Assembly (NCBI GenBank): GCA_025062155.1
Contig: JANXAM010000003.1
Location: 62,001-126,000, forward strand
Origin: Gloeomargarita sp. SKYB120
GTDB lineage: Bacteria; Cyanobacteriota; Cyanobacteriia; Gloeomargaritales; Gloeomargaritaceae
Reading direction: 5' to 3'
DNA: 64,000 nucleotides
Positions 9,752 to 43,549 of this stretch are shown here, one piece after another (within the stretch, counting starts at the first letter, position 1; every line of letters begins with the position of its first letter). Below the pieces are notes generated by a model. The model was not told where the DNA came from. It did no database searches and worked only from the letters and a program-made list of their open reading frames with translations. A program made the position numbers and the translations under genes.

Positions 9752-11890
9752 CTAAACGTCTTTAGCCACCGCTTCGGTGTATTTTTCCCACATCTGCTGA
9801 AATGCCGCCCCTAACTGCTGGGCAAAGCGTTGGCCATTCCACAGCGGCGACGTGTGCCGACTCTCTAGCAGGCGTTGTCGAATCTGCTGTCGCAAAGCCG
9901 CATCGGTACCCAGCCGCACCCCCCAGGCCACGTACTCCTCCGGCGTCTGGGCCATCCCTTCCGCAATCCCGCACTGGGTCAAAAACGCATAGCTACTGCG
10001 GGCCGCAAACTGCTGGCCCACGCGGGTCACCAGGGGAATCCCCAGCCACAGGGCCTCGAGCGCTGTTGTTGCGCCGTTGTAGGGGTAGGTATCGAGCACC
10101 ACATCGGCTAAGGCTTGCAGGTTCGCCCGCTGGATAAACTCATTCGCAACGGGGGGTAGAAATCGCAGGCGGGCTGGGTCCACCCCCAACACCTGCGCTT
10201 GAGACAGAAGTTGCTCCTGCAGTCGTTTCTCATCGCCTTTCACACATAGGTAACTACCAGGCACCTGGCGCAGGATACGCAACTGCAAATCCACAGTAGC
10301 GGGGTGGCGTTCGTAGCTGCTTTGGGCCGTGTAGAAGATAACCGCGTCTGGCTCGATTCCCAGGTCTTCCCGCCGCAGGGTCGGCACATCCACCTCAAAC
10401 CCGTCCACCGCGATGTAGGTCTCTGGCAAGCGCCAAATCGTTTCTTGATAGTAATCTTGGGCGTTCGCCGGTAGCACCAGGGGGTCTGCGATGAAGTAAT
10501 CCACACTGTCTAATCCGCTGGCGTCCCAGCCTAACCAGGTCACCTGCACCGGTGCCGGTTTTTTCGCTAGCACCAAACAACTGCTGTCTACGGTCAAGCT
10601 GTCCATGTCCACCAGCACCTGGATGCCATCGCGGGCAATCTGCGCCGCCAGCACGCTAGGGTTCGTGTGGTAGTAGCAATGGTCGCACCGCTTCACAAAC
10701 CAGGCGTGCCCAAACTCGTCCGGGGGCTGGCTGATGCAGTACAAAAACAGTTCCAACCGCTCTCGGTCATAGTGCTCGAAAAACCAGCGAGCTAGCCACC
10801 CCACCGCATGCTGGCGAAATGTCGAGGACAAAAAGCCCACCCGCAGTCGCTGGGACGTCGCCGGCGGTTGCCCAAACAGGGGTGTCGCACCCCGCACCGC
10901 TCGACCCATGCGCGTGCTGATGCAGTTGCACAAGGGGCGGTCCAGCGCCGGTTCATCCCGCAGGTAGGGGAGAAAAAAGGGTATCTGGAACAAAAGGGCG
11001 CCCAGGGTTTTCAAAGCTGGGGCAAAGTCGGTAGCAGGGTCGGCAATCGCCCGCAGCAACTGCAGGTAGGATTCCGCTTCGGCAAGGATTTCCGACCAGG
11101 CATCGCCGCCAGCGTCAAATAGCATTTGCAACCGGCAGTACTGGGCATAGCCCTGGGCCACCAGGGAATGGGTCTGCGCGACCGCCTTTTGCCGGTCACA
11201 CCACTGCCGAGCTTGGTTGTACTGGCGCATTTCTCCGTACAGGTGCGCCAGCAGCCCGAGCACGTCCACGTTGTCCGGGTCCGTCTCCAGCGCCAGCAGC
11301 AGCCATTTCTCCCGCACGGCCGGCGGCGCATGCTCCCGCACTCGGCGGCTAACGGTCGCCAACGCTTGGGCGTAGGTCTGCGCTGGTAAATGCGCCTGGC
11401 AAGCCCCCACCAACCGCTCTACCAGGGGATTGAATTCCACGTGCGATGCCACTGCGACCAAGGTGGCGCAAAGGGGTGCCACCGGAAAGGTTGCCGTCGT
11501 CTCAAGGGCTTGAACCAAGCGCTCGAGGGCGTCGGCGGTTAACTGGTCCTGCACAGCGGCGGTTTCAATCCAGCAGCATAGCCGCTCGGGGGTAGGAGCC
11601 ACTTCATAAGCCGCCTGGTACAGTCCCAAACCCACCGCCGGTTGCGTCGTCAGATAGGATTGCGCCTGGGTTTCCAACCACTGGGCCAATGCCGCTGCTT
11701 GGGAAACCGGCAAACGCGCCCTTGCCTGGCACCACCACGCCTGGGCCGCTTCAGGGTCCGCCTGCAACAGGTGCGCCAATCCCCCGTAGCCCCAAGCGCT
11801 CACATCTTCAGGTTCCTGGGCCAGCGCCCGTTCCACTTCCGCACGCAAGCCTGCGTAGTCCTGGGCGTCCAGCCAGGTTTGGGCATTCAT
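9752..11890 (-). CDS. TPR protein with SPINDLY/OGT-type (GT41) glycosyltransferase domain
   Basis: A 712-residue cytosolic protein. The N-terminal 350 or so residues are TPR-like helices (for example the ALETDPDNVDVLGLLAHLYGE repeat). From about residue 370 a GT41-like domain follows: LRVGFLSSTFRQHAVGWL, then PVQVTWLGWDASGLDSVDYF, which parallels the APIQVTWLGYPNT motif of O-GlcNAc transferase, and VVLDTYPYNGATTALEALWL near residue 600, which parallels the OGT nucleotide-sugar site. Known relatives transfer GlcNAc or fucose to Ser/Thr of proteins; the substrate here is unknown. ATG 11890 overlaps the stop of the upstream MerR gene by ATGA, so the two are co-translated. Family assignment is good; activity is inferred. 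Confidence 0.85.
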   Translation of the reverse strand: MNAQTWLDAQDYAGLRAEVERALAQEPEDVSAWGYGGLAHLLQADPEAAQAWWCQARARLPVSQAAALAQWLETQAQSYLTTQPAVGLGLYQAAYEVAPTPERLCCWIETAAVQDQLTADALERLVQALETTATFPVAPLCATLVAVASHVEFNPLVERLVGACQAHLPAQTYAQALATVSRRVREHAPPAVREKWLLLALETDPDNVDVLGLLAHLYGEMRQYNQARQWCDRQKAVAQTHSLVAQGYAQYCRLQMLFDAGGDAWSEILAEAESYLQLLRAIADPATDFAPALKTLGALLFQIPFFLPYLRDEPALDRPLCNCISTRMGRAVRGATPLFGQPPATSQRLRVGFLSSTFRQHAVGWLARWFFEHYDRERLELFLYCISQPPDEFGHAWFVKRCDHCYYHTNPSVLAAQIARDGIQVLVDMDSLTVDSSCLVLAKKPAPVQVTWLGWDASGLDSVDYFIADPLVLPANAQDYYQETIWRLPETYIAVDGFEVDVPTLRREDLGIEPDAVIFYTAQSSYERHPATVDLQLRILRQVPGSYLCVKGDEKRLQEQLLSQAQVLGVDPARLRFLPPVANEFIQRANLQALADVVLDTYPYNGATTALEALWLGIPLVTRVGQQFAARSSYAFLTQCGIAEGMAQTPEEYVAWGVRLGTDAALRQQIRQRLLESRHTSPLWNGQRFAQQLGAAFQQMWEKYTEAVAKDV

Positions 11891-12891
11891 GGCATTTCTA
11901 GCGAAGGCGGGTACAGCTCGCCGCTGGGTAGCGTGGCTCCCCACAGATTCGCCGTTGACAGGCTGTTGGGGTCTAAACGGGCGCCCGTCAAGTCCGCGCC
12001 GCTCAGGTTCGCACCCCACAACGACGCGCCCATCAGATTGGCCTCGCGTAAATTTGCCCCGATCAGCAGCGCCTCGCTCAAATTAGCCTCCTGCAGATTG
12101 GCCGCTGTCAGATTGGCCCCGCCTAGATTGGCACCCACCAAATTGGCCGCCATGAGATCCGCTTCACTCAGGTCCGTGCCAATCATCACCGCTCCAATCA
12201 TCTGGCTATGGCGAAAATAGCCCCCAATCGCATCAGCGCCCGTAAGATTAGCGCCAATCAACCGGCTGTTCTCCAAAACTACCTCAGCCAAATTCGCCAG
12301 CATCAGGTGCGCACGGCTCAAGTCCACGCCGCTCAGGTTCACCCCCGCCAGATTCACCTGGAGCAGGTCCCATCCCTGGAAATTCCGTTCCCCAGCCCCA
12401 TAGCGCTGCAACAACTGTTCGCGGTTCGAAGTGGCCGGGGTGGGCGATGGAGGCACGGGGGTCGGATTAGCGGCCTCCGCCAACCATTGTGTCAGCGTCC
12501 GGCTCCCATTCATGCGGCGGTCCGTCTCCGGCAACCGCGTCAACAGCCACTCCAACCGCTGGCTAATTGCCTGGTGGGTCGCCTGCAACTGTTGCATTTG
12601 TTGGGAGAGCATCGCCAGGCGTTCCTTGACCAAACGCCGGAAACTCCCGCAGGGGTCAATTCCCTGGGCCTGCAGTTGCACCAGTTGCTTGATGTCCTCC
12701 AGCGACAGGCCAAATTGTTTACAGTGCTGGATAAACCACAGGCGGGTCAGGGATTCCGGAGGATACAGCCGATAGCCACTCTTGTTGCGCTCTGGCGGCG
12801 CCAGCAGGCCCTCCCGCTCGTAGAACCGAATCGTCTGGGGCGACACCCCCGCCTGGCTACTCAATTCCCCAATCAACCAGCCCCGTACCAT
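11887..12891 (-). CDS. MerR-family regulator fused to a pentapeptide-repeat domain
   Basis: A 334-residue fusion. Residues 1-70 are a MerR winged helix-turn-helix (IGELSSQAGVSPQTIRFYEREGLL, then PPERNKSGYRLYPPESLTRL), residues 70-130 the usual MerR dimer coiled coil, and residues 140-155 a Pro/Thr linker (PTPVPPSPTPATS). From about 160 to 320 there are tandem pentapeptide repeats of the A(D/N)LXX kind, headed by LLQRYGAGERNFQGWDL. Ordinary MerR proteins carry a metal- or drug-sensing tail here; a right-handed beta helix could instead act as a protein-interaction or DNA-mimic domain. It is coupled to the GT41-like gene and divergent from the tubulin-like gene 111 nt away, so it may control both. 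Domain calls are firm; role inferred. Confidence 0.88.
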   Translation of the reverse strand: MVRGWLIGELSSQAGVSPQTIRFYEREGLLAPPERNKSGYRLYPPESLTRLWFIQHCKQFGLSLEDIKQLVQLQAQGIDPCGSFRRLVKERLAMLSQQMQQLQATHQAISQRLEWLLTRLPETDRRMNGSRTLTQWLAEAANPTPVPPSPTPATSNREQLLQRYGAGERNFQGWDLLQVNLAGVNLSGVDLSRAHLMLANLAEVVLENSRLIGANLTGADAIGGYFRHSQMIGAVMIGTDLSEADLMAANLVGANLGGANLTAANLQEANLSEALLIGANLREANLMGASLWGANLSGADLTGARLDPNSLSTANLWGATLPSGELYPPSLEMP

Positions 12892-13002: not shown

Positions 13003-16000
13003 ATGGCGGAATACCAAGGCATGACCCCCAGCATCGTGGTGGGACTGGGCGGCACCGGCAAGGAAGTCATCATGAAAATCCGGCGGATGATTGTCGAGAC
13101 CTACGGCAGTTTGGATGCGTTGCCGATTGTCTCTTTCCTGCACGTGGACACGGAACAAAACGCCAAGGTGTCGGAACCCCAGGTGGTGTTGAAACAAGAT
13201 ATTTCCCTGCGACCGGTGGAGCAAGTTTGGGCCAAAGTCGATAACGCCAAGGCTATTTTGAATCGCATCGCCGACTACGACTATCTCACCGAATGGTTTC
13301 CCCCCGAACTTACTGGTACGGACTCCATCTTGGCGGGCGCGGGGCAAATCCGAGCGCTGGGAAAATTCGCCTTTACCGTCAATTACCAGACCATCAAAAA
13401 CGCCTTTGCCAATGCCCGTGCTCGCATTGTCGGTCATGAAAAATTCATGCTGGACCGCTGGGGCGTGCAACTGGATAAAGGCATCAACATTTTCATCGTG
13501 TGTTCCCTCAGCGGCGGGACGGGTTCTGGCATGGTGCTGGATATGGCCTACAACGTGCGGGAATGGGTGCCGCCGTCGGATTTACCCCAAACCTGTGCGT
13601 TTCTGGTGTTGCCGGGGGCCTTTTCGGGTCTGGGGGACCGCGTGATTGCCAATGCCTACGCCGCCCTGATGGAACTCGACCACTACTCCCGTCCCAACAC
13701 GCGTTTTGAAACGCAATACAGCCACAACATTGCCGACCGGATCAGCAGTCAAAACGCGCAAGATACCCCCTTTGGTTTTTGTTACCTGGTGGGCAACAGC
13801 AACGACAAGGTCACCCTGCCCACTTTAGAGGCCGTTTTGGAAATGGTGGCCCAGAATATCTTTTTGGATTTCTCGTCTGGGTTTAGCCAATACAAAAAGC
13901 TGGTGCGGGACAACATTCGCAAGCACTGGTCCAGCCCTGACCCCCTTGGGTTTCCACAAAACTACATCACCTTTGGGTTGGCGAGTATCCAATTTCCGGT
14001 ACAGCGGGTGCTCAATGCCTGTGCGTCACGGTTGGCCGTTGCACTCGTCGACTGGTGGGCCAATCCCACGCCGGCTCCGACGGCGATGCGGGATGTGATC
14101 AAAACAGAAATCTTACCCAACTTGGGCCTGGCCGAATCCGAAAACAATCACCAATTGCTGGATAGCATCAGCGTGGGCGACAACATGAAACCCTACAGCA
14201 AAGAAGTGTCGGATTGGGTGGCCAGCCTGCGCAAGCGTCGCAATGATTTAAACATTCCCTTTGAGAATTTGCAGCGGTTTATTTCAGTGGAGGAAGAAAA
14301 ATATCGGGTGCATTTTAACGATGCCGATAGCGACCCCCGCCGCTGGAGTGATTACTTCCAAAAGATGTGGGATAACCTAAACCGGCTGATTCCCCAGAAA
14401 ACCAGAGAACTGCGAGAGACAGTGGCACAGATGGTCGAAGACCGGTTCCGGGGGCCGAAATGGACGCGCCAGTTTTTAGAAGTCTTGATGGAAGTTTGGC
14501 TGGAGTTTCGCACCACCTTTGACCAGTCTCGCCAGAAGGAGTGGTTAGCCCGCGAGCGTTCCGCTAGTCAAGCCCTGCAAATCCTGCTCAAACAGATTGA
14601 TAACCACGCCCGCCAGGTGATGCTGCTGAATCGCAAAAAAGTGATTGATGATGACTTCAACGCCATTATGCAGGCGCTGGAGTCCCTGTACGTATCCAAA
14701 GTTGAAGTCAAGGCGCGGGCGCTGGCGATTCCCCTGCTCGATGCCCTGCGCGAAGAAACCCAACGCCTGCTCAACGACCTGAATAACTTTGATAGAAACC
14801 TAGAGAATTTACGGCGGCAATTGGCGGAGCGGGAGGAAGTTTATACGCGCGAAACCAGCACCTTAACTGTCAATGGCATCCTACTCTATGACCCCAAAGA
14901 CATCGAACAAATTTACCAAAAAACCCTAGCAAACCGGGGCGACAGTGTGTTTCAGAGCATGACCCAAGACATTTGGGGCGGGATGGGAGGACGCTTGTTT
15001 GATTTGCACACCTTTGAACACTTGCGGCAACAGGATTTGTATCAACGCATCCTCAACCGGGCGATTGACGAGTTCAGCAACAGTGAGCAACTCAAAGTTT
15101 CGGTGGCGGAGAAATTCATTGCCCAATATCCGACGGTGGAGCAACAGGAAGCCCAACTGAAAAGCACTTTTGAAAAAAGCGAAGCCTTTTTACGGTTCAG
15201 CCAGGAACAGGCGCGACTGGGTTGGGATGACCGCCCCGAAAAACGGCAAACCTTAGTGGGGATTCAAGGGGGCAATAAACCGACAGACCCCGCCGTCGCA
15301 GCGCTGCTACCCCTGCTGCGCAAAGCCACCACCTTGACGGACAAGGACATTCGGCCCTACAACGACCCCCACCACATCTATTTCGTGCGGGAAATTGGGG
15401 CGTTTCCCCTGCGCTTGATTGAGGGGATGGAACGGATGCGCACCATTTACCGAACCGTTGCCCAGATGGACCGCAATCCCCTGCATACTCACCACAATCG
15501 CCAGCAATTTGCCGACATCATGCCCGCTTCCAGCGAAGAAATTCAACTGCGGGAGAATTTGGTCTTGGGCCGCGTGTTTCAATTGCTCACCGAATCCCAA
15601 AATCAAATCACCGGCTACACGGAAATCAAGCTGAATTACCGGGATAGTGCGACGGGTTTAGCGCGGAGTTTGAACCTAGGGAGTACCTGGGAGGAAGCGG
15701 AGCAGTATTTATTAGCAGACCAGAACCGACGGGCGCGGGAATTGCTCAACGATGAGATCCAAAAAATTCTCAAGCAAGCGACCACCAAAGACGCCAAACG
15801 CGCCCTTTACGAACAGTTAATGAGCTACCTGCAAACCGTAGAACAAACGGTAGTAGGCGGGCGCGATAACCCCGAATACCAACGTGTCGAAGAAGCTATT
15901 AGCAACTGTGTGCGCACCTACCGCTTGTTTGAGCCGGGGATGACCACGAGTTCTACGCCCAAATCTACGGCAACGCCAACGGTGAGCAAGTCCACTTCTA

Positions 16001-16383
16001 CATCTCGGCCCGTCGCTGAACCTGCTATCAGCGGCACCGATAGCGCCCTTGAAAAATTTACCAAGCTCGTCGAAGCCTGTTTCAAAGGAGGCAAAAAACC
16101 ATCAGACAAAGAGTTAGACATCCTTGATAAATTGCGGGAAAAATACGGGGTGAGTAAGGAAAAAGCCCAAGAAATTATTGCCCGTTACCAGCCAAAGCAA
16201 AATGACCCCGAACTAGCGGCCTACGAATACGCCCTGATGTTCCGAGCCTTCTTGGAAAATGATGGTGAAATTGGCCTTGAGGAACGCGCGCAACTGCTGG
16301 AATTGCAAGAGGAATTGGGCCTAACGGATGAACAAGTAGCAACCATTGAAGCCAACATCCGGGATGAACTGGGCCTCGCCTGA
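13003..16383 (+). CDS. Tubulin/FtsZ-superfamily protein with TerB-like C-terminal repeats
   Basis: A 1126-residue protein. It begins SIVVGLGGTGKEVIMKIRR, a glycine-rich nucleotide-binding loop, and has the tubulin/FtsZ signature CSLSGGTGSGMVLDMAY at residues 167-183, so GTP binding is expected; it matches the Tubulin_2-like bacterial family. The middle (about residues 500-970) is helical with coiled coil. A Ser/Thr/Pro linker near residues 978-1010 leads to two tandem helical units resembling TerB, the second being RAFLENDGEIGLEERAQLL. The frame stays open upstream to 12208, but that part is antisense to the MerR gene; ATG 13003 (MAEYQGM) is preferred, with ATG 13021 as alternative. Function is not established. 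Confidence 0.82.
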   Translation: MAEYQGMTPSIVVGLGGTGKEVIMKIRRMIVETYGSLDALPIVSFLHVDTEQNAKVSEPQVVLKQDISLRPVEQVWAKVDNAKAILNRIADYDYLTEWFPPELTGTDSILAGAGQIRALGKFAFTVNYQTIKNAFANARARIVGHEKFMLDRWGVQLDKGINIFIVCSLSGGTGSGMVLDMAYNVREWVPPSDLPQTCAFLVLPGAFSGLGDRVIANAYAALMELDHYSRPNTRFETQYSHNIADRISSQNAQDTPFGFCYLVGNSNDKVTLPTLEAVLEMVAQNIFLDFSSGFSQYKKLVRDNIRKHWSSPDPLGFPQNYITFGLASIQFPVQRVLNACASRLAVALVDWWANPTPAPTAMRDVIKTEILPNLGLAESENNHQLLDSISVGDNMKPYSKEVSDWVASLRKRRNDLNIPFENLQRFISVEEEKYRVHFNDADSDPRRWSDYFQKMWDNLNRLIPQKTRELRETVAQMVEDRFRGPKWTRQFLEVLMEVWLEFRTTFDQSRQKEWLARERSASQALQILLKQIDNHARQVMLLNRKKVIDDDFNAIMQALESLYVSKVEVKARALAIPLLDALREETQRLLNDLNNFDRNLENLRRQLAEREEVYTRETSTLTVNGILLYDPKDIEQIYQKTLANRGDSVFQSMTQDIWGGMGGRLFDLHTFEHLRQQDLYQRILNRAIDEFSNSEQLKVSVAEKFIAQYPTVEQQEAQLKSTFEKSEAFLRFSQEQARLGWDDRPEKRQTLVGIQGGNKPTDPAVAALLPLLRKATTLTDKDIRPYNDPHHIYFVREIGAFPLRLIEGMERMRTIYRTVAQMDRNPLHTHHNRQQFADIMPASSEEIQLRENLVLGRVFQLLTESQNQITGYTEIKLNYRDSATGLARSLNLGSTWEEAEQYLLADQNRRARELLNDEIQKILKQATTKDAKRALYEQLMSYLQTVEQTVVGGRDNPEYQRVEEAISNCVRTYRLFEPGMTTSSTPKSTATPTVSKSTSTSRPVAEPAISGTDSALEKFTKLVEACFKGGKKPSDKELDILDKLREKYGVSKEKAQEIIARYQPKQNDPELAAYEYALMFRAFLENDGEIGLEERAQLLELQEELGLTDEQVATIEANIRDELGLA

Positions 16384-34054: not shown

Positions 34055-36898
34055 TTATGCCGGATTTGACGGCGGGGGATGTTGCGCCAGCACCTTTTTC
34101 AGGTAGCGACCGGTGTGGGAATGGGGATTGTCCGCCACCTGTTCGGGCGTCCCCGTGGCCACAATTTCCCCACCCCGTTCACCTCCTTCCGGCCCCAAAT
34201 CAATCACCCAATCACAACAGCGAATCACATCCAAATTGTGCTCAATCACCAGCACCGTATTTCCCTTGTCCACCAGCCGCTGGATGATGTCCAACAGGCG
34301 ATGCACGTCATAAAACGATAAACCGGTGGTGGGTTCATCAATCAGGTAAAGCGTTTTACCCGTCGCCCGGCGGGACAGCTCGGTAGCCAGTTTAATCCGC
34401 TGCGCTTCCCCTCCCGACAGCGTAGGTGCCGTTTGCCCCAGGCGAATATACCCTAGCCCCACATCCACCAGCGTTTGCAGGCGGCTGACCGCCTGGGGAA
34501 TTGCCGCAAAAAACTCGCAGGCCTCCTCCACTGTCATATCCAGCACGTCGGCAATGGATTTGCCCTTGTATTTCACCTCCAGCGTCTCGCGGCTATAGCG
34601 TTTGCCCTGGCACACCTCGCACTGCACATAGACATTGGGCAAAAAATTCATCTCAATTACATTCACCCCTTGGCCGCCGCAGGCTTCGCAGCGCCCCCCT
34701 TTGACATTGAAGGAAAAATGGCCCGCCTTGTAACCCCTGGCTTTAGCCGCTGGCGTCTCGGCAAAAATGGCTCGGATCACGTCAAACGCCCCCGTGTAGG
34801 TGGCCGGATTGGAACGGGGGGTGCGCCCAATCGGGGATTGGTCAATCACAATGACCTTATCCAGCGCTTCCAGGCCCTCAATCGCTCGCAGTTCCGATGG
34901 AAAGGGAATTTTGTGCCCGAAATGGTGCGCCAGCGCCGGATAGAGCAACTCGTTGATCAGGGTGGATTTGCCCGACCCCGACACCCCCGTCACACACACA
35001 AACATCCCGAGGGGAATCTCCACATCAATATGTTTGAGATTGTGGCGATGGGCGTCGAGTAATCGCAGGGTTTTGCCATTGCCAGGCCGTCGTCGGGCGG
35101 GTGTGACAATTTCTTTGCGGCCCGATAAATAGGCACCCGTGATGGACTCAGGATGGTTCAGAATGTCTTCCAACTTGCCTTGAGCGACAATGCGCCCGCC
35201 GTGGACCCCCGCGCCTGGGCCAATATCCACGATGTGGTCGGCACTGCGAATCGTCTCCTCGTCGTGCTCCACCACGATCAACGTATTGCCCAAATCCCGC
35301 AGGCGTTTGAGGGTGGCCAATAGCCGGCTGTTGTCCCGCTGGTGCAAGCCGATGCTCGGCTCATCCAACACGTACAAAACGCCGGTCAGTCCTGAGCCGA
35401 TTTGAGTCGCCAGGCGGATGCGCTGGGCTTCCCCACCGGAAAGGGTCATGGCTGGGCGGTCCAGCGTTAAATAGTCCAGCCCCACGTCCACCAAAAACTG
35501 CAACCGCGCCCGGATTTCCTTAAGCACCAGATGGGCAATTTGGGCCTGGCGGGGCGTCAGTTCCAAGCGGTCGAGACGCTGCAGACATTCCTGTACCGAA
35601 ACGCTGGTGAAATCGGTGATGCGGTAGCCGCCAACTCGCACCGCTAGCGCTTCCGGTTTCAAACGGGTTCCCAGGCACGTAGGGCAGAGAGCATCGAACC
35701 GGTACTGGTCTAACTTTTGCTGCACCAATTCTGACGTCGTTTCCCGATACTGGCGTTCCAAGATGTTTAACACCCCTTCGTATTTTTTCCAGTAGCCCTG
35801 CCGTGAGCCGCCTATCCAGATGGGTTCCGGCGCGCCATGCAGGATGATGTCCTGCTGTGCTGGCGTGAGCTTGTACCAGGGGGTCGCCAAATCAAAGCCG
35901 TAGGTTTTCCCCAAACTGTCCAACAGCCCCAAGTAATAGTCATGGGGCTTATCCGACCAGGGAGCAATCGCTTGATAAAGGGGCAATTTGGGATTGGGCA
36001 CGACCAGTTCTGGGCTAAAGCGGCGCAAAAACCCCAAACCATGACATTCAGGACAGGCGCCATAGGGAGAATTAAAGGAAAATAAACGGGGCGACAACTC
36101 TGACATGACAGCCCCATGTTCAGGACAAGCAAATTTTTCTGAAAACACCCAATCGCGCCAGGTTTCCCCCTGCTGAATACTGGCAATCACCACCCCTTCG
36201 CCGTGCTGCAAACACGTTGTCAACGAATCCACCAAACGGCTGTGCAAATCCGGTTTGATGACCAAACGGTCTACCACGATTTCGATGCGATGGTTGTGGT
36301 TTTTATCCAGGGGCGGCACCTCGCTCAAGCTATAGACCGTGCCATTCACCCGCACCCGTGCAAATCCCTGCTGGGCAATATGGGCCAAGATTTTTTGGTG
36401 GGTTCCTTTTTTGCCCCTGACCACCGGCGCCAGGAGCTGGAAACGGGTTCCGGCGGGCAAGCTGAGAATCTGGTCGGCGATTTGGTCCACCGTTTGCGGG
36501 CTAATGTTGTGGTCGCAAATGGGGCAATGGGGCACACCGGCGCGCCCAAATAACAGGCGAAAATAATCGTAAATTTCTGTGACCGTTCCCACCGTCGAGC
36601 GGGGGTTGTGGGACGTGGATTTTTGGTCAATGGAAATCGCTGGACTCAATCCTTCAATCGCATCCACATCCGGCTTGTCCAGTTGACCCACAAACTGGCG
36701 GGCATAGGCGCTCAGGGACTCTACGTAGCGCCGCTGTCCTTCGGCAAAAATCGTGTCGAAGGCCAACGAAGATTTACCCGACCCCGATACCCCCGTAAAC
36801 ACAATCAACTGGTTGCGGGGCAATTCCAGGTCAATATTTTTGAGATTGTGCTGGCGGGCACCGCGAATCCGAATGACCTCGCCGCTACCGGATGCCAT
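34055..36898 (-). CDS. uvrA: Excinuclease ABC subunit A
   Basis: DNA damage recognition subunit of nucleotide excision repair. The 947-residue protein has two ABC ATPase modules: P-loops [16 protein letters not shown] near residue 35 and [16 protein letters not shown] near 645, ABC signatures [16 protein letters not shown] and [16 protein letters not shown], and zinc-binding cysteine clusters ([23 protein letters not shown] with CEVCQG). Length and order are normal. Confidence 0.98.
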
Positions 36899-36910
36899 GG
36901 CAATGCTCGG

Positions 36911-37255
36911 CTAGGCCCCCAGGAGCCTAAACAGCACCCCATTCAGCACGGTCAACAGGATGGGGCCGACCAGCGCACTCACCCAACTGTCCAGCCGAAA
37001 GCCTTTCACTAGCGATGCAGCCAGGGCGAAAATCAGAGCGTTAATCACCAACGTAAACAGCCCCAGCGTCAGGAGATTCAGGGGCAACGTCAGCAGCAGC
37101 AACACCGGTCGCACCAAGGCGTTGAGCAGCCCCAGCACCAACGCGGTCCACAGCGCCGTGCCAAATCCCTGCAGCCGAATCCCCAGCGGCAACCGCGAGA
37201 GAATCCACAAACTCAGGGCATTGACCACCCAGGTCACCAGCAACTTGGTCAACAT
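36911..37255 (-). CDS. Small four-helix membrane protein (phage-holin-like / DUF360-type)
   Basis: A 114-residue hydrophobic protein with about four membrane helices. The motif LGLLNALVRPVLLLLTLPLNLLTLGLFTLVINA is characteristic of the so-called phage holin family IV membrane proteins, which are common in bacterial chromosomes and not evidently phage genes. Its ATG overlaps the stop of the truncated ribonucleotide reductase gene (ATGTTGA), and it ends 12 nt before uvrA starts. Function unknown. Confidence 0.82.
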   Translation of the reverse strand: MLTKLLVTWVVNALSLWILSRLPLGIRLQGFGTALWTALVLGLLNALVRPVLLLLTLPLNLLTLGLFTLVINALIFALAASLVKGFRLDSWVSALVGPILLTVLNGVLFRLLGA

Positions 37256-38433
37256 GGCGTTTCGGCGTCCTCGGAACGATGGTGCGCAATGAGCAATTCC
37301 CGCAAGTAGGCCCTGGCCTGCTCCCGACTTTCATTATACAGAGCCAAAAAACGAGCCTTTTTCTCCGGCGTGTTCAGCAAGTCACAATTGGCCCGCGCAA
37401 TCGCTTCACCCGCCCACTGAATCGCCCCTTCCCCAGAGTAAAACTGGCTGCGGACGGACTCCACACATTCTTCGCGCGTCGGTTTGCGGTGAAAGACGCG
37501 GGTGTGGTTCGCCATGCGCAGGGCGTCCCGTTCCGGGTCAATCCGCCAGTTGCCCTGCTCGTCCTGTTGCCAGAGATTGGCCTTGGCGTAGGCCGCCTCC
37601 TGGTCTTCAGCGGCAAATTGCCGCATGCCCGCCGAGCGCCGGATATTGCCCGCCACAATCGTAGCCGCCGCCTCATCAATCAACAAACAACACTCTAAGG
37701 GCGTCAACCGCCGACCGACGGCCTTGTTCAGAATCCGCGCCACCCGGGGAAACAAGGGCGGCAACAGAGCCGGATTGGCAATCCCGCCGAACCCTTTGAG
37801 CACTTCCCCCTTGGGCCGCACATGGCCCACATCCACGGTGACCGTCCACACACCCCCGTCTACTGGTTCGCTGGCCAGTTCCAGCAGGCTTTGATACGCC
37901 CGCACCCAACCTTGCCGTGAATCTCCCACCCAAATCGTTACCTGGGTGCCCTGGCGTTCGATGCGGGTCTCCTGCCAGCGTTGCTCCGGCGGCACATCCC
38001 CCGGCTGCCCGACGACTTGCACCTCCAAACGGGTTACAATCGGCGGCAACTGGTTGACGTATTGGGGTTCCAGCACCGCGCCCGTCCCCGAACCTTGCAT
38101 CGCCAGGTCCATCATCAGGCCAAAACCGCGCCAGTCCACAATCCGCTGCGACGTGCAGTTATAGGCTCCCGAGAAGTTTTCTGGCCGGTGAATCCAGTCG
38201 GTGCCCCCCACCCATAGCCAGCGGCCTGAAGTCAGCGCCTTCAGCGTTTGCTGCATTTCCATCACCAGCGCTTTTTCTTCGGGGGTGAAGCGCCCCAGGA
38301 CGGCCAAATCCTCCACCGTGCGCTGGCACACCTGCGCCCAGGATTCCCGTTGTCCGTTGACCCGGCGGCTGTAGGTGCGGAAAAAGACAGGGTAGGCACA
38401 GGGCGCTTGCAGCGATAGTTCGGGATGCGTCAT
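37249..38433 (-). CDS. nrdJ: Class II (B12-dependent) ribonucleotide reductase, N-terminal half only
   Basis: A 394-residue protein matching the N-terminal half of adenosylcobalamin-dependent ribonucleoside-triphosphate reductase: AYPVFFRTYSRRV at the start, Cys93 in SGAYNCTSQRIVDW (the first of the redox cysteine pair), MDLAMQGSGTGAVLEPQYV, VAGNIRRSAGM and GAIQWAGEAIARANCDLL. Full enzymes run to 700 residues or more; here the frame stops at EDAETPC, about where the radical-forming NPCGEI motif should lie. That motif, the second pair member and the C-terminal cysteines are missing. It could be a remnant or half of a split gene. ATG 38433 gives the usual start; ATG 38475 is possible. Confidence 0.85.
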   Translation of the reverse strand: MTHPELSLQAPCAYPVFFRTYSRRVNGQRESWAQVCQRTVEDLAVLGRFTPEEKALVMEMQQTLKALTSGRWLWVGGTDWIHRPENFSGAYNCTSQRIVDWRGFGLMMDLAMQGSGTGAVLEPQYVNQLPPIVTRLEVQVVGQPGDVPPEQRWQETRIERQGTQVTIWVGDSRQGWVRAYQSLLELASEPVDGGVWTVTVDVGHVRPKGEVLKGFGGIANPALLPPLFPRVARILNKAVGRRLTPLECCLLIDEAAATIVAGNIRRSAGMRQFAAEDQEAAYAKANLWQQDEQGNWRIDPERDALRMANHTRVFHRKPTREECVESVRSQFYSGEGAIQWAGEAIARANCDLLNTPEKKARFLALYNESREQARAYLRELLIAHHRSEDAETPC

Positions 38434-38567
38434 GGGCCATCGGTCAGGAAAAACCTCACCAGCACTATAGCGCATCGCCTGGTCCGGCAAAGCAGTCCGC
38501 CCACTCCTTAGCATAAAAAATGCAGCGCTCGTGTATTTTAGAGAAATTAGCCCTTGCGATGGACTCC

Positions 38568-38831
38568 ATGACCGGCGAATCCTATCTCAACCATCCCAAC
38601 TTTGGCCTGCTCTACCGGATTTGCCGCCTGGGAGATGGAAGTGAACTGTACATAACCCTGTACGCCCATCGCCTGTTTTTTCACGTGCGGTACCAGGGCG
38701 ACCAGCTTGAAATCGAACCGGTGAGCCGTCATCAAGCCAAGATGCTCTTGGAAATGCACTTGCGCGACCTGCGACGCCTGGGCAAACACCAGGAGTACCA
38801 GAAACTCCAGCAGTGGGAAAAAGGGCTGTGA
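38568..38831 (+). CDS. pipX: PipX, PII-interacting coactivator of NtcA
   Basis: Small cyanobacterial regulator that swaps between the PII signal protein and the nitrogen regulator NtcA, activating NtcA when nitrogen is low. The 87-residue protein has the Tudor-like N-terminal domain (ESYLNHPNFGLLYRICRLGD, then YAHRLFFHV) and a C-terminal helical part (LLEMHLRDLRRLGKHQEYQKLQ) as in known PipX of 89 residues. ATG 38568 aligns with the family start; ATG 38559 and 38520 are in-frame alternatives. It overlaps pipY by GTGA. A likely target of its partner NtcA, the urt promoter, is in this window. Confidence 0.9.
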   Translation: MTGESYLNHPNFGLLYRICRLGDGSELYITLYAHRLFFHVRYQGDQLEIEPVSRHQAKMLLEMHLRDLRRLGKHQEYQKLQQWEKGL

Positions 38832-39502
38832 TCTCCGAACAACAGCTTGCCCAGAACTGGGAGCGCCTGCGCCGCCAGATTCCTTCCCACGTGCGAGTGG
38901 TGGCTGTGACCAAACAGGTGCCGGTGGAGTTAGTGCGCCACGCCTATCATCTGGGGTTACGCGACTTTGGGGAAAACCGCATCCAGGAGGCCGTGCCCAA
39001 AATCCAAGCGCTCCAGGATCTACCCGACATTACCTGGCATTTCATTGGTCATTTACAAAGCAACAAAGCCCGCCAAGCGCTGACCTACTTCTCCTGGATT
39101 CACAGCGTGGACGACCTGGCCCTGGCGCAACGGCTCGACCACCTCAATCAAACCCTGCAGCGCCCCGTCCAGTTGCTCCTGCAGGTGAAACTCCGTCCCG
39201 ACCCCAACAAGTACGGCTGGACTGTGCCTGCATTGCTCCAAGCGTTACCAGCGTTGGCCCAATTGCGCCACGTACGCATCAAGGGGTTAATGACCATTGC
39301 ACCCTTGGGTTTATCGCCGGTGGAACTCCAAATGCTGTTTTCAGAACTGGTGGCGCTGGGCCATCAAATTAGCAGCCAATTGCCTCTCCAGGAATACTCG
39401 ATGGGCATGTCCGATGATTATCCCTACGCGATAGCCGCTGGCGCAACCATGGTCCGTTTGGGACGCTGCTTGTTTGGCGAACGCCCCCAGCAAACCCGTT
39501 AA
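38828..39502 (+). CDS. pipY: PipY, YggS-family PLP homeostasis protein
   Basis: Pyridoxal-phosphate-binding protein of the YggS/PROSC family, which buffers PLP levels rather than catalysing a reaction. The 224-residue protein shows VAVTKQVPVELVRHAYHLG with the PLP lysine, DFGENRIQEAVPKI, WHFIGHLQSNKAR and the C-terminal YSMGMSDDYPYAIAAGATMVRLG. GTG 38828 overlaps the pipX stop by 4 nt, the linkage seen in other cyanobacteria where the two genes are co-expressed. sepF and proC follow. Confidence 0.94.
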   Translation: MISEQQLAQNWERLRRQIPSHVRVVAVTKQVPVELVRHAYHLGLRDFGENRIQEAVPKIQALQDLPDITWHFIGHLQSNKARQALTYFSWIHSVDDLALAQRLDHLNQTLQRPVQLLLQVKLRPDPNKYGWTVPALLQALPALAQLRHVRIKGLMTIAPLGLSPVELQMLFSELVALGHQISSQLPLQEYSMGMSDDYPYAIAAGATMVRLGRCLFGERPQQTR

Positions 39503-39829
39503 AAACTTGTGAAAATCCCCCGCGCTATCCGAGAACGCTCCCTATAATGACTCGAAACCGGTGAGCTTGGGCGCGTCCATGGGCAAAATCAACAAAATAA
39601 AAGGGTGGTGGATATTGATTTTGACGAAAAAAAGGGTTACGGTTCAGGTATCATCCCTTGTATTAAAGTACATTGGTAGGCCAACACCTGGCCAATCACC
39701 TGCAAGGGTGACCGGTCAAGGTTTGATGATGCACAGGCTCTACCAATGGCTGACAAACGCTTTGCCTCCTCAACACCTGGTTGATGCTTTAATGTCTACC
39801 TATACGCCTGTAGCGGGAGTACACATCCC
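39503..39829 (+). other. 327-nt intergenic region between pipY and sepF
   Basis: Contains a perfect -10 hexamer TATAAT at 39543-39548, without a clear -35, which could drive sepF with a long leader. A short open frame at 39561-39842 runs through it into sepF but has no ribosome-binding site and no recognisable composition, so I do not call it a gene. No riboswitch or tRNA is visible. Confidence 0.45.
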
Positions 39830-40396
39830 ATGCAACTGCTAAAACGCTTGCGGGAATGGATCAGCCTGGGAGAACCGGTGGAGTACGACTACGACCCCGG
39901 TCAATCTCAGAGCGCTCCTACACCCATGACGCCACCAACGACCGAGTACCGGGACGCCCCGCGCCGACGGGAACGTTCGCCGGTGACCACTACCCCAGAA
40001 CCCTCTACCTCCCGAACGCCGATGAACAACGTGATTGGTTTGCCGACGGCCCACAACCAGCCCTTTGAGGTGGTAGTGATGGAGCCGCGTTCGTTTGAGG
40101 AAATGCCCCAGGCGATTCAAGCCCTGCGGGAGCGGAAATCGGTGGTGCTCAACGTCACGCTGATGGAACCGGAGCTGGCCCAGCGGGCGGTGGACTTTGT
40201 CGCCGGCGGCACCTATGCCATTGATGGGCACCAGGAGCGACTGGGGGAGAGCATTTTTCTCTTCACGCCCAGCGGGGTGCAGGTGACCACGCGGACCTCG
40301 ATTCCCAATCCGACGCCCCTGGAGGCGCCCAGTTCTCTGCGCAACACGCCGCCGATTTGGACGCCAGAGTCCATGCCGGCCTACTTGGCTCAGTAG
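39830..40396 (+). CDS. sepF: Cell division protein SepF (Cdv2)
   Basis: Cytosolic membrane anchor for the FtsZ ring. The 188-residue protein begins with an amphipathic helix ([16 protein letters not shown]), has a Pro/Thr-rich linker (residues 28-65) and the SepF core [31 protein letters not shown]...[15 protein letters not shown] at about 78-150, with a variable tail. It precedes proC by 3 nt, a conserved neighbourhood in cyanobacteria. Confidence 0.95.
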
Positions 40397-40399
40397 GGG

Positions 40400-41194
40400 A
40401 TGACCAACCGGTTGGGCATCATTGGCGGGGGCGCTTTGGCCGAAGCCCTCGTCCAGGGTTGGTTGTCGGAAAAATTGCTTGCCCCTGGGGAAGTGGTCGT
40501 TAGCCATCCCCGTTTGGAACGGCGACGGTACTGGCAGGAGACCTATGGAGTGGCGGTCAGCAGTGAAAATCGGGTCGCCGCCGCTGCTAGCGAAGGGGTA
40601 CTTGTCGCGGTGAAACCTCATCAGTTCAGCCAAATTGCGCCAGCCCTTCGTCACGCCCAACCGCAAGCAGTCCTAGTGTCGGTGCTGGCGGGAGTGGCTC
40701 TCGTGACTTTAGAGCAAGCTGTGCCGGAAGCGGCTTGGGTGCGCGCGATGCCTAACGCGCCGGTGCGAGTGCGGGCGGGAATCACGGCGGTGGCTTGGGG
40801 ACAGCAGGTGAATGAAGAGCAAAAAGCGTGGGTGGAGCGACTGTTTCGCGCTGTCGGCCAGGTGGTGACGGTGCCAGAAACCTACATGAATGCCGTGACG
40901 GCCCTAGCCGGCTCAGGACCGGCCTACGTGGCGGTGCTGGTGGAGGGATTGATTGACGGCGGCGTGCTGGTGGGCTTACCCCGCGCATTGGCCACCCAGT
41001 TGGCGGTGCAGACGGTTGCTGGGACCGTGGCGCTGCTCCAGCAGCAGGACATCACGCCAGCGGAGCTGAAGGCCCAAGTGATGAGTCCAGCAGGAACCAC
41101 GGCAGCCGGTCTGTTGTGTTTGGAATCCCAGGGTGTGCGGGGGCTTTTGATGCAGACGGTGCAGGCGGCCTACCAGCGGGCCCAAACCCTTTAG
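40400..41194 (+). CDS. proC: Pyrroline-5-carboxylate reductase
   Basis: Last step of proline synthesis, reducing P5C with NAD(P)H. The 264-residue protein has the Rossmann motif LGIIGGGALAEALVQG, the VLVAVKPHQF strand and the C-terminal signature MSPAGTTAAGLLCLESQGVRG. It starts 3 nt after sepF, and its end overlaps the convergent TPR gene by 4 nt. Confidence 0.96.
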   Translation: MTNRLGIIGGGALAEALVQGWLSEKLLAPGEVVVSHPRLERRRYWQETYGVAVSSENRVAAAASEGVLVAVKPHQFSQIAPALRHAQPQAVLVSVLAGVALVTLEQAVPEAAWVRAMPNAPVRVRAGITAVAWGQQVNEEQKAWVERLFRAVGQVVTVPETYMNAVTALAGSGPAYVAVLVEGLIDGGVLVGLPRALATQLAVQTVAGTVALLQQQDITPAELKAQVMSPAGTTAAGLLCLESQGVRGLLMQTVQAAYQRAQTL

Positions 41195-42018
41195 CCCATT
41201 TTTTCCAGCATTTGCTCCCGCTGTTGCTGAATCTGGCTGGCTTGAGGTTGCAGCGCTAGGGCCTTCTCAAAACAGGTCAGGGCGTCGTTGTAGCGCTGGC
41301 CATAGCTGAAGGCCACCCCCAAGTGATACCACACTTCCCAGGCGTCCGGTTGCTTTTGACTAGCCTGTTGCAAGTAAGCCACGGCATGGTCCCATCGCCC
41401 CAAGCGTTGCCAAACCCGCCCAAGCAGCAGGCAATCCTGAGCGCTCAAGGTGGGTTGGTCTGGCCGGAATTGCTCAAGCTGCTGGGATAAGTCTGCGGGC
41501 AACTCAAGACTCTCCTGGGCGAGCCACTGGCGCAGGCGTTCCAGCGGTGATGGCGTGGGTGGGACGGCAGTCAGGGGTTCGGTCACCTCCAGAGCGTGCA
41601 GCCGCTTTTGCCACTCCTGCTCCAGGGCTTGGCGGCTCTGGGCGGCGAGGGCGGCCAGCGTGAGCTGGTAGTGAGTCAGTTGCTGGGCCAACACCTCCGC
41701 CACGATGGTTTCTGCTTGGGTGCGCATGGGTTGTCGGGCTTGGTCAGCGGCCATTTGAACCAATTGCTGGAGAATGCTGCGGCGCAACCACCACAATCCC
41801 ATGCCTGTCGCCACTAGCAACAGCACCAGCACCAGCAGCAAGAGATTCAACAGCAAGGTCGTGTGGCGAAAAGCCCGGTCCACTTCCATCTGCACCACCT
41901 CTTGCCAGGGCCGGTAAGCCGACGGTTCACCTCGATTCCCCCCACCACCGCCGCCTTGGGCTAGTACCGGTTGCATCGCCAGGAGCAGTCCCAATCCCAG
42001 CCAAACCCAGCGCGCCAT
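41191..42018 (-). CDS. Membrane-anchored TPR protein
   Basis: A 275-residue protein. An N-terminal signal-like helix (WVWLGLGLLLAMQPVLAQ) is followed by a Gly-rich stretch, a second membrane helix (LLLNLLLLVLVLLLVATGMGLWWL), a coiled-coil part and two or three TPR motifs near the C-terminus (AWEVWYHLGVAFSYGQRYNDALTCFEKALALQP). It probably scaffolds a complex at the membrane. ATG 42018 was chosen over ATG 42024 because AGGTGG then lies at the right distance. No specific family recognised. Confidence 0.78.
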   Translation of the reverse strand: MARWVWLGLGLLLAMQPVLAQGGGGGGNRGEPSAYRPWQEVVQMEVDRAFRHTTLLLNLLLLVLVLLLVATGMGLWWLRRSILQQLVQMAADQARQPMRTQAETIVAEVLAQQLTHYQLTLAALAAQSRQALEQEWQKRLHALEVTEPLTAVPPTPSPLERLRQWLAQESLELPADLSQQLEQFRPDQPTLSAQDCLLLGRVWQRLGRWDHAVAYLQQASQKQPDAWEVWYHLGVAFSYGQRYNDALTCFEKALALQPQASQIQQQREQMLEKMG

Positions 42019-42110
42019 AGTCATTCCCACCTTTTCTCTCCATCTTAACGCCCGCTGCAGGGGCCAAAGAGACGGATTAAAATGCGAGAAGACAGTCTTG
42101 ATGGCCCGCC

Positions 42111-42599
42111 ATGTCCCTTTGCCCAGTCCCTCTTGAGCAACAGCCACTTCAGGAATATCGAACTCTGCGGGATTCCTGGTTTTATTGCTGGCCGGCCTTG
42201 AGTTGGGGGGCCTATGTGCGGCGACTCCTGGCAGCGGCGGGGTTAGGGGCGCTTGTGGCACTGCCGGTGGCGGCAGCCAGCTTTGACCCCTGGCGACAAC
42301 CGTGGCTGTTTGGTTGCGCTTCGGTCGCGGGCGCGGGTCTCCTGCCGAGTTTTTTGCTGTTGCGGCTGTACCTGGGATGGCGATATGTCCAGCAACGCTT
42401 GGCCAGTCGTACCATCGTGTACGAGGAATCTGGCTGGTATGATGGACGAACGTGGGAAAAACCCCCGACGCTGTTGGCGCAGGAACGACTGGTGAGCATC
42501 TATGAGGTGGGACCCCTGCTGCGGCGATTGCGGTGGAGTCTCGCGGGTGTAGCCCTGCTGTACGCCGTGCTTATGGGATTGGGGTGGCTGTGGCGGTAG
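42111..42599 (+). CDS. ycf36: Ycf36/CGLD27-family membrane protein
   Basis: A 162-residue protein conserved in cyanobacteria and plastids, of unknown biochemical function. It has the family opening CPVPLEQQPLQEYRTLRDSWFYCW, two membrane helices around residues 40-90, the loop TIVYEESGWYDGRTWEKPPTLLAQERLV and a last membrane helix. It is divergent from the TPR gene (92-nt gap with a TTAAAAT -10-like element near 42078) and overlaps the asparaginase gene downstream. Confidence 0.88.
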   Translation: MSLCPVPLEQQPLQEYRTLRDSWFYCWPALSWGAYVRRLLAAAGLGALVALPVAAASFDPWRQPWLFGCASVAGAGLLPSFLLLRLYLGWRYVQQRLASRTIVYEESGWYDGRTWEKPPTLLAQERLVSIYEVGPLLRRLRWSLAGVALLYAVLMGLGWLWR

Positions 42600-43549
42600 C
42601 GCGGGGAAAACGCACCCAGGCGGAACCCCTCACCGTGCATCTGTTGCGGGAGGGCATTCCCGAGTCATTGCACTATGTCCACGCCGCCTTGGCCGATGAA
42701 CGAGGACGGTTGTTGGCGGTCGCCGGGGATGGGGAAACGACAACCTTTGCCCGCAGTAGCCTCAAACCCTTCCAAGCGCTGGCGGTCGTCACCACCGGGA
42801 CACTCGAGCACTTTCACCTGGGAGAACGGGATTTGGCGGTTATTTGCAGTTCGCATCAGGGGCAGGTAGCTGCTACCCGCCAGGTGTTTCGCATCCTCTG
42901 GCAGGCGGATATTGACCCGGCAGAACTCCAGTGCCCCGTGCCCCCTGGCAAACGCAGTGCATTGGAGCATGGCTGTTCTGGTAAACACGCGGGGATGTTA
43001 GCCGTATGCGCTCGCTATGATTGGCCCCGTCACACCTATCTCCAGCGGCAACACCCGGTGCAGGAGTTGATTCTCCGCCAGGTGGGCGAGCTACTGGGCG
43101 TACCCGGCGCTGAATTCATTGCCGTGCATGACGACTGCGGCGCACCCACCTATCTTTTGCAACTCCATCAACTGGCCGCCCTGTACAGTCGTTTGGCGAC
43201 GGGACAACACCTGGGACTGGCGCAGATCAGCCGGGCGATGACCCAACATGCGGAATTGGTGGCGGGTGTTGGCCATTTCGACACCGAACTCATGCTGGCG
43301 ACCCAGGGAACCCTTGTAAGCAAGGCCGGGGCTGAAGGGGTGCAGTGTCTCGCGCATCTGGAAACGGGGATGGGCTTGGCGATTCGAGTGCTAGACGGCG
43401 CGAAACGCGCCAAATATGCCACCGCCATTCATCTCCTGCACCAGTTGGGTTGGATTTCCCCAAGCATCCGTGAGCGCCTAGCAGAACAGTTCGTCCAATT
43501 GGGGCCCTACGTGCGGCTAGAGGTGCAGGGGGAATTGTCCTTGCTGTAA
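42590..43549 (+). CDS. L-asparaginase II-type protein
   Basis: Predicted to hydrolyse asparagine to aspartate and ammonia. The 319-residue protein belongs to the thermolabile AnsA/asparaginase II family: LREGIPESLHYVHAALAD, FARSSLKPFQALAVVTTG, ICSSHQGQ, LEHGCSGKHAGMLAVC, AVHDDCGAPTYLLQL and GAKRAKYATAI. The start is uncertain; GTG 42590 (ten bases inside ycf36) gives MAVARGKRTQAEPL, and GTG 42584 is equally in frame. Activity is inferred from family membership. Confidence 0.9.
   Translation: MAVARGKRTQAEPLTVHLLREGIPESLHYVHAALADERGRLLAVAGDGETTTFARSSLKPFQALAVVTTGTLEHFHLGERDLAVICSSHQGQVAATRQVFRILWQADIDPAELQCPVPPGKRSALEHGCSGKHAGMLAVCARYDWPRHTYLQRQHPVQELILRQVGELLGVPGAEFIAVHDDCGAPTYLLQLHQLAALYSRLATGQHLGLAQISRAMTQHAELVAGVGHFDTELMLATQGTLVSKAGAEGVQCLAHLETGMGLAIRVLDGAKRAKYATAIHLLHQLGWISPSIRERLAEQFVQLGPYVRLEVQGELSLL

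Follow-up and report, generated by a model that had tools for sequence, protein, structure and literature searches.

The 64,000-nucleotide stretch of DNA analysed here (Gloeomargarita sp. SKYB120, contig JANXAM010000003.1, positions 62,001 to 126,000 of the forward strand; called the window below) encodes a Tubulin_2/FtsZl1 protein whose C-terminal six-helix module is shared with cyanobacterial caspase, kinase, TIR, and CHAT proteins. Computational analysis shows that orthologues of this protein are co-inherited in a near-obligate manner, and usually as direct neighbors, with a gene encoding a zinc ribbon, a transmembrane (TM) helix, and a sensor domain. Judging from these sequence comparisons, the Tubulin_2 GTPase may act in the cytoplasm as the output side of a sensor pair, that is, a receptor-controlled and GTP-driven tubulin-like assembly, a reading to which we give an even chance.

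The gene is an uninterrupted reading frame of 1126 residues from an ATG at 13003 to a stop at 16383. A second in-frame ATG lies upstream at 12208, and the start at 13003 is the likely one because the orthologues share its methionine (MAEYQGMT or MSEYTGMT). The nearest named relative, a protein of Gloeomargarita sp. SKYG116, is 96% identical along its length, and the mean column identity of the whole protein in the orthologue alignment is 77%. The reading frame, the motifs, the linker, and the two-repeat tail listed in a preliminary description of this DNA are all real features of the sequence.

Membership of the window protein in the tubulin/FtsZ superfamily, as proposed in that description, is supported by profile and model comparisons. 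The match to PF13809 scores 324 bits against a cut-off of 27 and covers positions 1-355 of the 356 in the model. When the full-length structural model was compared with the PDB by Foldseek, the best 50 matches were all tubulin or TubZ (probability 0.91-1.0, best E 3e-3). This model is weak (mean pLDDT 51, 17 closely related rows) and was used just for the tubulin matches and the tail; searching PDB sequences with the protein or with profiles of it gave no match. The Gly-rich N-terminal loop reads VVGLGGTGKE (residues 12-21). Across 23 Tubulin_2 proteins from three groups, G14, G16, G17, T18, and G19 of this loop are invariant, as are G112, A113, R117, G120, and A123 of a T3-like loop, and S168 together with GGTGSG at 171-176 is 100% conserved. 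The Gly-rich loop and GGTGSG, both pointed out earlier, are also kept across 15 orthologues. A weak profile alignment pairs the T3-like loop, GAGQIRALGKFA, with T3 of FtsZ; T2, T3, and T5 align in FtsZ order at a profile P of just 0.016, which was not taken as proof. A canonical FtsZ is encoded separately in the same genome (G000:C17). At a contig end (G000:C62:1-540), there is a second FtsZ-like fragment (E 1.5e-65), which may come from a second ftsZ gene, from misassembly, or from contaminating DNA.

The family was named FtsZl1 by Makarova & Koonin in 2010 (PMC2875224), who described an FtsZ-like N-terminus, a coiled coil, and a helical C-terminus, and whose alignment includes the cyanobacteria Gloeobacter, Nostoc, and Thermosynechococcus. 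The sequence and the low-confidence model place an FtsZ-like N-terminal domain, a helical middle, and a helical C-terminal part in the same order in the window protein. Since this family is already known, the size of 1126 residues and the GGTGSG motif are unremarkable: the founding archaeal member has 1051 residues (PMC2875224), and the cyanobacterial Tubulin_2 proteins of this analysis mostly have 1050-1170. The protein is indeed far longer than FtsZ, as first described, yet of ordinary size within the FtsZl1/Tubulin_2 family.

Modelled alone, the tail forms six helices in two repeats of three (mean pLDDT 85, pTM 0.52), which agrees with the earlier account of two helical repeats after a Ser/Thr/Pro linker. 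The tail profile was run over 386 cyanobacterial genomes and matched proteins in 26 genomes without a Tubulin_2 orthologue of the window type. In the ten such proteins examined, the module precedes FGE, WD40, Peripla_BP_6, PBP_like_2, GUN4, or DnaJ_C domains; any C14 caspase, Ser/Thr kinase, TIR, or CHAT domain that the protein has lies N-terminal to the module. The resulting architectures include C14-module-Peripla_BP_6, C14-module-PBP_like_2, C14-module-GUN4, kinase-module-WD40, TIR-module-WD40, and CHAT-module-FGE. In the reverse direction, a profile built from 25 non-tubulin segments only recovered the window tail (E 8.1e-14, 49 bits) plus the orthologues with the same tail, and gave no match to Tubulin_2 proteins with zinc-ribbon, SHOCT-like, or GYF_2-like tails. 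In none of the proteins examined is the module covered by a Pfam model, and as far as the open-access literature shows, the module shared by tubulin-like, caspase, kinase, TIR, and CHAT proteins looks new. A caspase-like protein in L088 carries several six-helix modules in tandem.

The sensors of these proteins are related to those of the Tubulin_2 partners. The sensor of L084 is 40% identical over 292 residues to the PstS-type partner of the window genome (E 3e-62), and that of L066 is 32% identical over 452 residues to the partner in L007 (E 8e-37). Of four such proteins checked, L064, L066, and L084 have a predicted TM helix separating module from sensor, and L074 has none there. Elsewhere among cyanobacterial Tubulin_2 proteins, a similar linker leads into a zinc ribbon (8 loci) or, as judged by eye, a SHOCT-like (~6 proteins) or GYF_2-like (one protein) tail. 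Because these tails occupy the same place, the Tubulin_2 C-terminus appears to be a slot for interchangeable adaptors. In a tree of the N-terminal domain, one branch (94/91, one broken-tail protein included) has all same-tail proteins on the same side; branches elsewhere are long and the deeper order is unsure. One orthologue (L014:8001-11357) has a tail disrupted near its end by a frameshift or insertion, with the remainder intact.

By profile comparison, the tail is a remote relative of TerB. Its profile aligns in register with a TerB profile over 96 columns at P 8.5e-10, and the controls are clean (0.51 for the reversed profile, 0.021 for the best of 60 shuffles, and 0.039 or worse for other regions of the protein), hence the conclusion of remote homology. 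The TerB alignment was assembled from the loci of a TerB scan of the genome, which gave six TerB matches without the window tail among them. The second repeat contains AFLENDGEIGLEERAQLL at residues 1082-1099 and keeps the acidic DGEI...E pattern, with D1087 and E1094 nearly invariant in the orthologue alignment; the first repeat lacks the Asp, and the caspase and kinase relatives lack the pattern. The Pfam TerB model PF05099 reaches 14.8-15.1 bits on the window tail against a cut-off of 24.4 (E 0.03-0.04), and sub-cut-off TerB matches occur in half of the 12 tail sequences (6/12), the most of any Pfam family (DUF533 equal). Foldseek comparison of the tail model with the PDB gave no significant TerB match; 2h5n, which we take to be a TerB-type structure, ranked sixth (E 1.8, TM-score ~0.3). 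The TerB-like tail of the preliminary description thus stands as remote homology, but neither the Pfam cut-off nor a significant Foldseek match was reached. MCM_WH, ENT, and EF-hand gave weak Pfam matches only and were set aside; the Foldseek match to ENT (probability 0.98 but E 2.4 across 54 columns) may reflect a common three-helix unit.

The partner protein consists of a CxxC...CxxC zinc ribbon, a single predicted TM helix, and a periplasmic domain of varying type, which by Pfam labels is LivJ-type/Peripla_BP_6 in the Nodosilinea group, NMT1 plus OmpA in L006 and L017, and PstS-type/PBP_like_2 in L010, L015, L018, and L041. Outside Gloeomargarita, the partner gene lies downstream of the Tubulin_2 gene on the same strand in 14 of the 15 loci whose downstream sequence extends far enough; the gap is mostly 5-206 bp, and in 12 loci it is no more than ~210 bp. 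In the phylum sample, a full-length orthologue is present in 4 of the 386 genomes, and the full zinc-ribbon/TM domain in exactly those four. In a family sample around G064, which overlaps the phylum sample (G064 is in both), 4 of 218 genomes have the orthologue and the same four have the partner, with the genes adjacent in all; three of these four (G451, G493, and G511) were not used in model building. The window genome contains the partner three times, two as a tandem of the PstS type (C15) and one of the WD40 type (C1), all unlinked to the Tubulin_2 gene, which is why the partner was invisible to the preliminary description; the membrane link suggested there is nonetheless borne out by this other route. 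Against the open-access literature, this conserved partner of a Tubulin_2 clade looks new. At L029:8300-10703, two tandem zinc-ribbon/TM/PstS-type genes that are 77% identical are followed by a gene resembling, by eye, a Dam-type DNA adenine methylase, and L030:7399-8508 encodes a zinc-ribbon/TM/WD40 protein with a beta-propeller at the sensor position of the partner family.

These observations suggest a possible mechanism. The partner would be a single-pass membrane protein with its zinc ribbon in the cytoplasm and an interchangeable extracytoplasmic ligand-binding domain. Once altered by a ligand outside, the partner would contact the tubulin-like protein at its TerB-like six-helix module, at its helical middle, or at both, and through this contact would control the place and time of GTP binding by the Tubulin_2 protein and of its assembly at the inner membrane. 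Since the sensors are related and a TM helix is predicted between module and sensor in three of the four proteins checked, the same parts seem to occur in two arrangements, either on one chain (enzyme-module-sensor) or on two chains (Tubulin_2-module plus zinc-ribbon/TM-sensor). Domain order, tail-module homology, co-inheritance, and sensor reuse are direct results of the computation; physical contact, the direction of signalling, ligand-dependent control, and GTP-dependent assembly at the inner membrane are what we infer. A fuller version, in which extracytoplasmic ligands switch the polymerisation of a bacterial tubulin relative via a zinc-ribbon/TM receptor, wired by a TerB-derived adaptor of caspase, kinase, TIR, and CHAT proteins, is offered as a tentative proposal.

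Several points weigh against the sensor-pair reading. The acidic T7 loop and catalytic residues of FtsZ were not identified in the Tubulin_2 alignment, where an invariant RDN at 302-304 is a T7 candidate only; T6-H7 likewise could not be located by the authors of PMC2875224. In the caspase and kinase proteins, module and sensor form part of one chain and a zinc ribbon is absent, and the analogy with them is one of domain position. The segments of the module profile were originally found with the window tail, which leaves some selection bias in the 49-bit match, though this score is far above threshold. The two genes are not adjacent in Gloeomargarita (four genomes), and no partner was found in the available sequence of L024. 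Finally, three of the four positive genomes of the phylum sample belong to one genus, and the genome searches scored few pre-selected candidates per genome, so that absences are approximate.

Among the alternatives, Makarova & Koonin proposed a membrane-remodelling or vesicle-forming machine for FtsZl1, with the sensor proteins acting here as mere anchors or cargo receptors. The family as a whole neighbors vWA, OmpA, and membrane proteins (PMC2875224), and a paralogue in the window genome itself lies in an operon with vWA, MotA-like, and OmpA-like genes. However, the partner of the window-type clade has variable ligand-binding domains instead of remodelling domains, and the tail module is a component of signalling proteins. 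During the review of PMC2875224, a referee had preferred transport or signalling on the basis of isolated periplasmic-binding-protein (PBP) neighbors, and the authors replied that such neighbors are not conserved; contrary to this reply, PBP-type neighbors are conserved in the present Tubulin_2 clade. We consider remodelling unlikely. A housekeeping cytoskeletal filament, whose tail would regulate polymerisation only and have no link to sensing, is consistent with the tubulin fold and the very high conservation of the whole protein, but it is very unlikely given the rare and patchy occurrence in cyanobacteria, the strict co-inheritance with a receptor-like gene, and the separately encoded canonical FtsZ.

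A role in cell death or phage defence, with the protein as a tubulin-like effector or threshold-setting scaffold using the caspase/TIR/CHAT adaptor set, gains from the module common to these proteins, from the patchy distribution in both genome samples, and from the conflict systems with GTPase, tubulin, and vWA components known in Firmicutes and Actinobacteria (PMC7159879). We nevertheless regard it as quite unlikely, as the Tubulin_2 protein has no PADLOC match, the tail profile found no further module copy in the window genome, no toxic enzyme is encoded with the Tubulin_2 gene, and the sensors resemble solute-binding proteins, not known phage sensors. The preliminary description had coupled the GTP-driven protein to a TerB-type stress or signalling module, a reading taken here as a GTPase fused to a TerB-type unit for metal or stress responses. 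The remote TerB homology and the acidic pattern of the second repeat agree with this, whereas the missed Pfam cut-off, the lost Asp of the first repeat, and the relatives without the acidic pattern do not. In the sense of a Ter system, this reading fails because the host genome (~96% complete) has no PF02342 match and hence no TerD, and no ter genes adjoin the Tubulin_2 gene, which leaves a stress module highly improbable.

For FtsZl1/Tubulin_2, membrane remodelling was proposed in 2010 and signalling was raised by a reviewer; the receptor gene and the shared adaptor tip the case towards signalling. The co-inherited receptor gene is a concrete and testable partner for one Tubulin_2 clade, and through the shared module, tubulin-like GTPases, caspases, kinases, TIR, and CHAT proteins all become parts of a single combinatorial network in cyanobacteria.

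The host assembly comprises 2.48 Mb in 91 contigs. As read from the sequence, the Tubulin_2 gene stands alone at the window locus, between a divergent gene upstream and an NAD-epimerase-like gene downstream (coordinates of all features are given in Table 1). Neighbor clustering placed the divergent gene, which encodes a MerR-type helix-turn-helix and pentapeptide-type repeats, beside the Tubulin_2 gene in L004 and L013 and not in other cyanobacteria, and it is not thought to be a component of the system. An operon with the epimerase gene was rejected, as this neighbor was seen in Gloeomargarita only. There are no vWA, GTPase, or OmpA genes at the window locus; such genes are frequent in the FtsZl1 family but not required. 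Plasmids and phages yielded no close orthologue and only distant relatives from other clades, some of which are labelled 'tubulin-like' in plasmid records.

Table 1 Features of the Tubulin_2 locus, in window positions
Feature	Residues	Position	Strand	Basis
Tubulin_2/FtsZl1 protein with TerB-like C-terminal module	1126 in total	13003..16383	+	Open reading frame translation, Pfam, orthologue alignment
Tubulin_2 GTP-binding domain	11-349	13033..14049	+	PF13809 E 1.4e-96; Foldseek top 50 all tubulin/TubZ
T1-like Gly-rich loop VVGLGGTG	12-19	13036..13059	+	Conservation in Tubulin_2 alignment
T3-like loop GAGQIRALGKFA	112-123	13336..13371	+	Conservation; weak FtsZ profile alignment
T4 signature loop SLSGGTGSGM	168-177	13504..13533	+	Conservation in Tubulin_2 alignment
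Long helical (coiled-coil-like) middle	446-618	14338..14856	+	Low-confidence model; such a region is described in PMC2875224
C-terminal alpha/beta domain without known fold	844-972	15532..15918	+	Model, local pLDDT 65-81
Ser/Thr/Pro-rich linker	~977-1011	15931..16035	+	Sequence; pLDDT ~25; not conserved among orthologues
Six-helix TerB-like module common to caspase/kinase/TIR/CHAT proteins	1012-1122	16036..16368	+	Profiles, model, profile-profile comparison
MerR-type helix-turn-helix and pentapeptide-type repeats gene, divergent, upstream		11887..12891	-	Read from sequence

A second Tubulin_2 gene of the same genome (L003:8186-14870; G000:C7:about 36185-42870) lies in an operon of vWA-like, Tubulin_2, MotA-like, and OmpA-like genes. 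The MotA-like and OmpA-like proteins match the PADLOC models of ZorA (E 1.8e-12) and ZorB (E 1.2e-14), and therefore this operon seems to combine a Zorya-type motor with a tubulin-like GTPase. Of 14 loci of a second Tubulin_2 clade, about half have a Cys-rich/TM/PBP gene close by, frequently accompanied by one for a membrane protein with a vWA-like DLSxST motif. L040, L042, L045, L047, L049, and L050 have a Cys-rich/TM/periplasmic-binding-protein gene and, in most cases, a membrane protein with the vWA-like DLSxST motif, and several of their Tubulin_2 proteins end in a zinc ribbon.

Compared with known systems, the window protein resembles FtsZl1/Tubulin_2 (PF13809; PMC2875224) in its N-terminal domain, helical middle, helical C-terminal part, and size. 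PMC2875224 describes neither a TerB-like tail common to caspases or kinases, nor tail swapping, nor a conserved zinc-ribbon/TM/sensor partner. The likeness to Zorya (ZorA/ZorB) belongs to the paralogous operon and not to the window locus, and ZorC, ZorD, and ZorE were not seen in that operon. The GAP1-N2 GTPase-centric conflict systems (Kaur et al. 2020, PMC7159879) also have a tubulin-domain protein with a helical C-terminal part, whose gene shares signalling or conflict loci with those of vWA and membrane proteins; in contrast, they are described for Firmicutes and Actinobacteria together with DO-GTPases and GAP1, none of which was seen beside the window gene. With the TerB superfamily (PF05099, DUF533), the tail shares a two-repeat helical domain of similar length and an in-register profile alignment, whereas its sub-cut-off Pfam score, the lost acidic residue of the first repeat, its place outside a Ter operon, and the lack of a significant PDB match set it apart. 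The cyanobacterial caspase, kinase, TIR, and CHAT sensor proteins have the same six-helix module, and the Tubulin_2 partners share their sensor types; these proteins differ in that module and sensor are on a single chain and in that a protease, kinase, TIR, or CHAT domain takes the N-terminal place of the tubulin-like GTPase.

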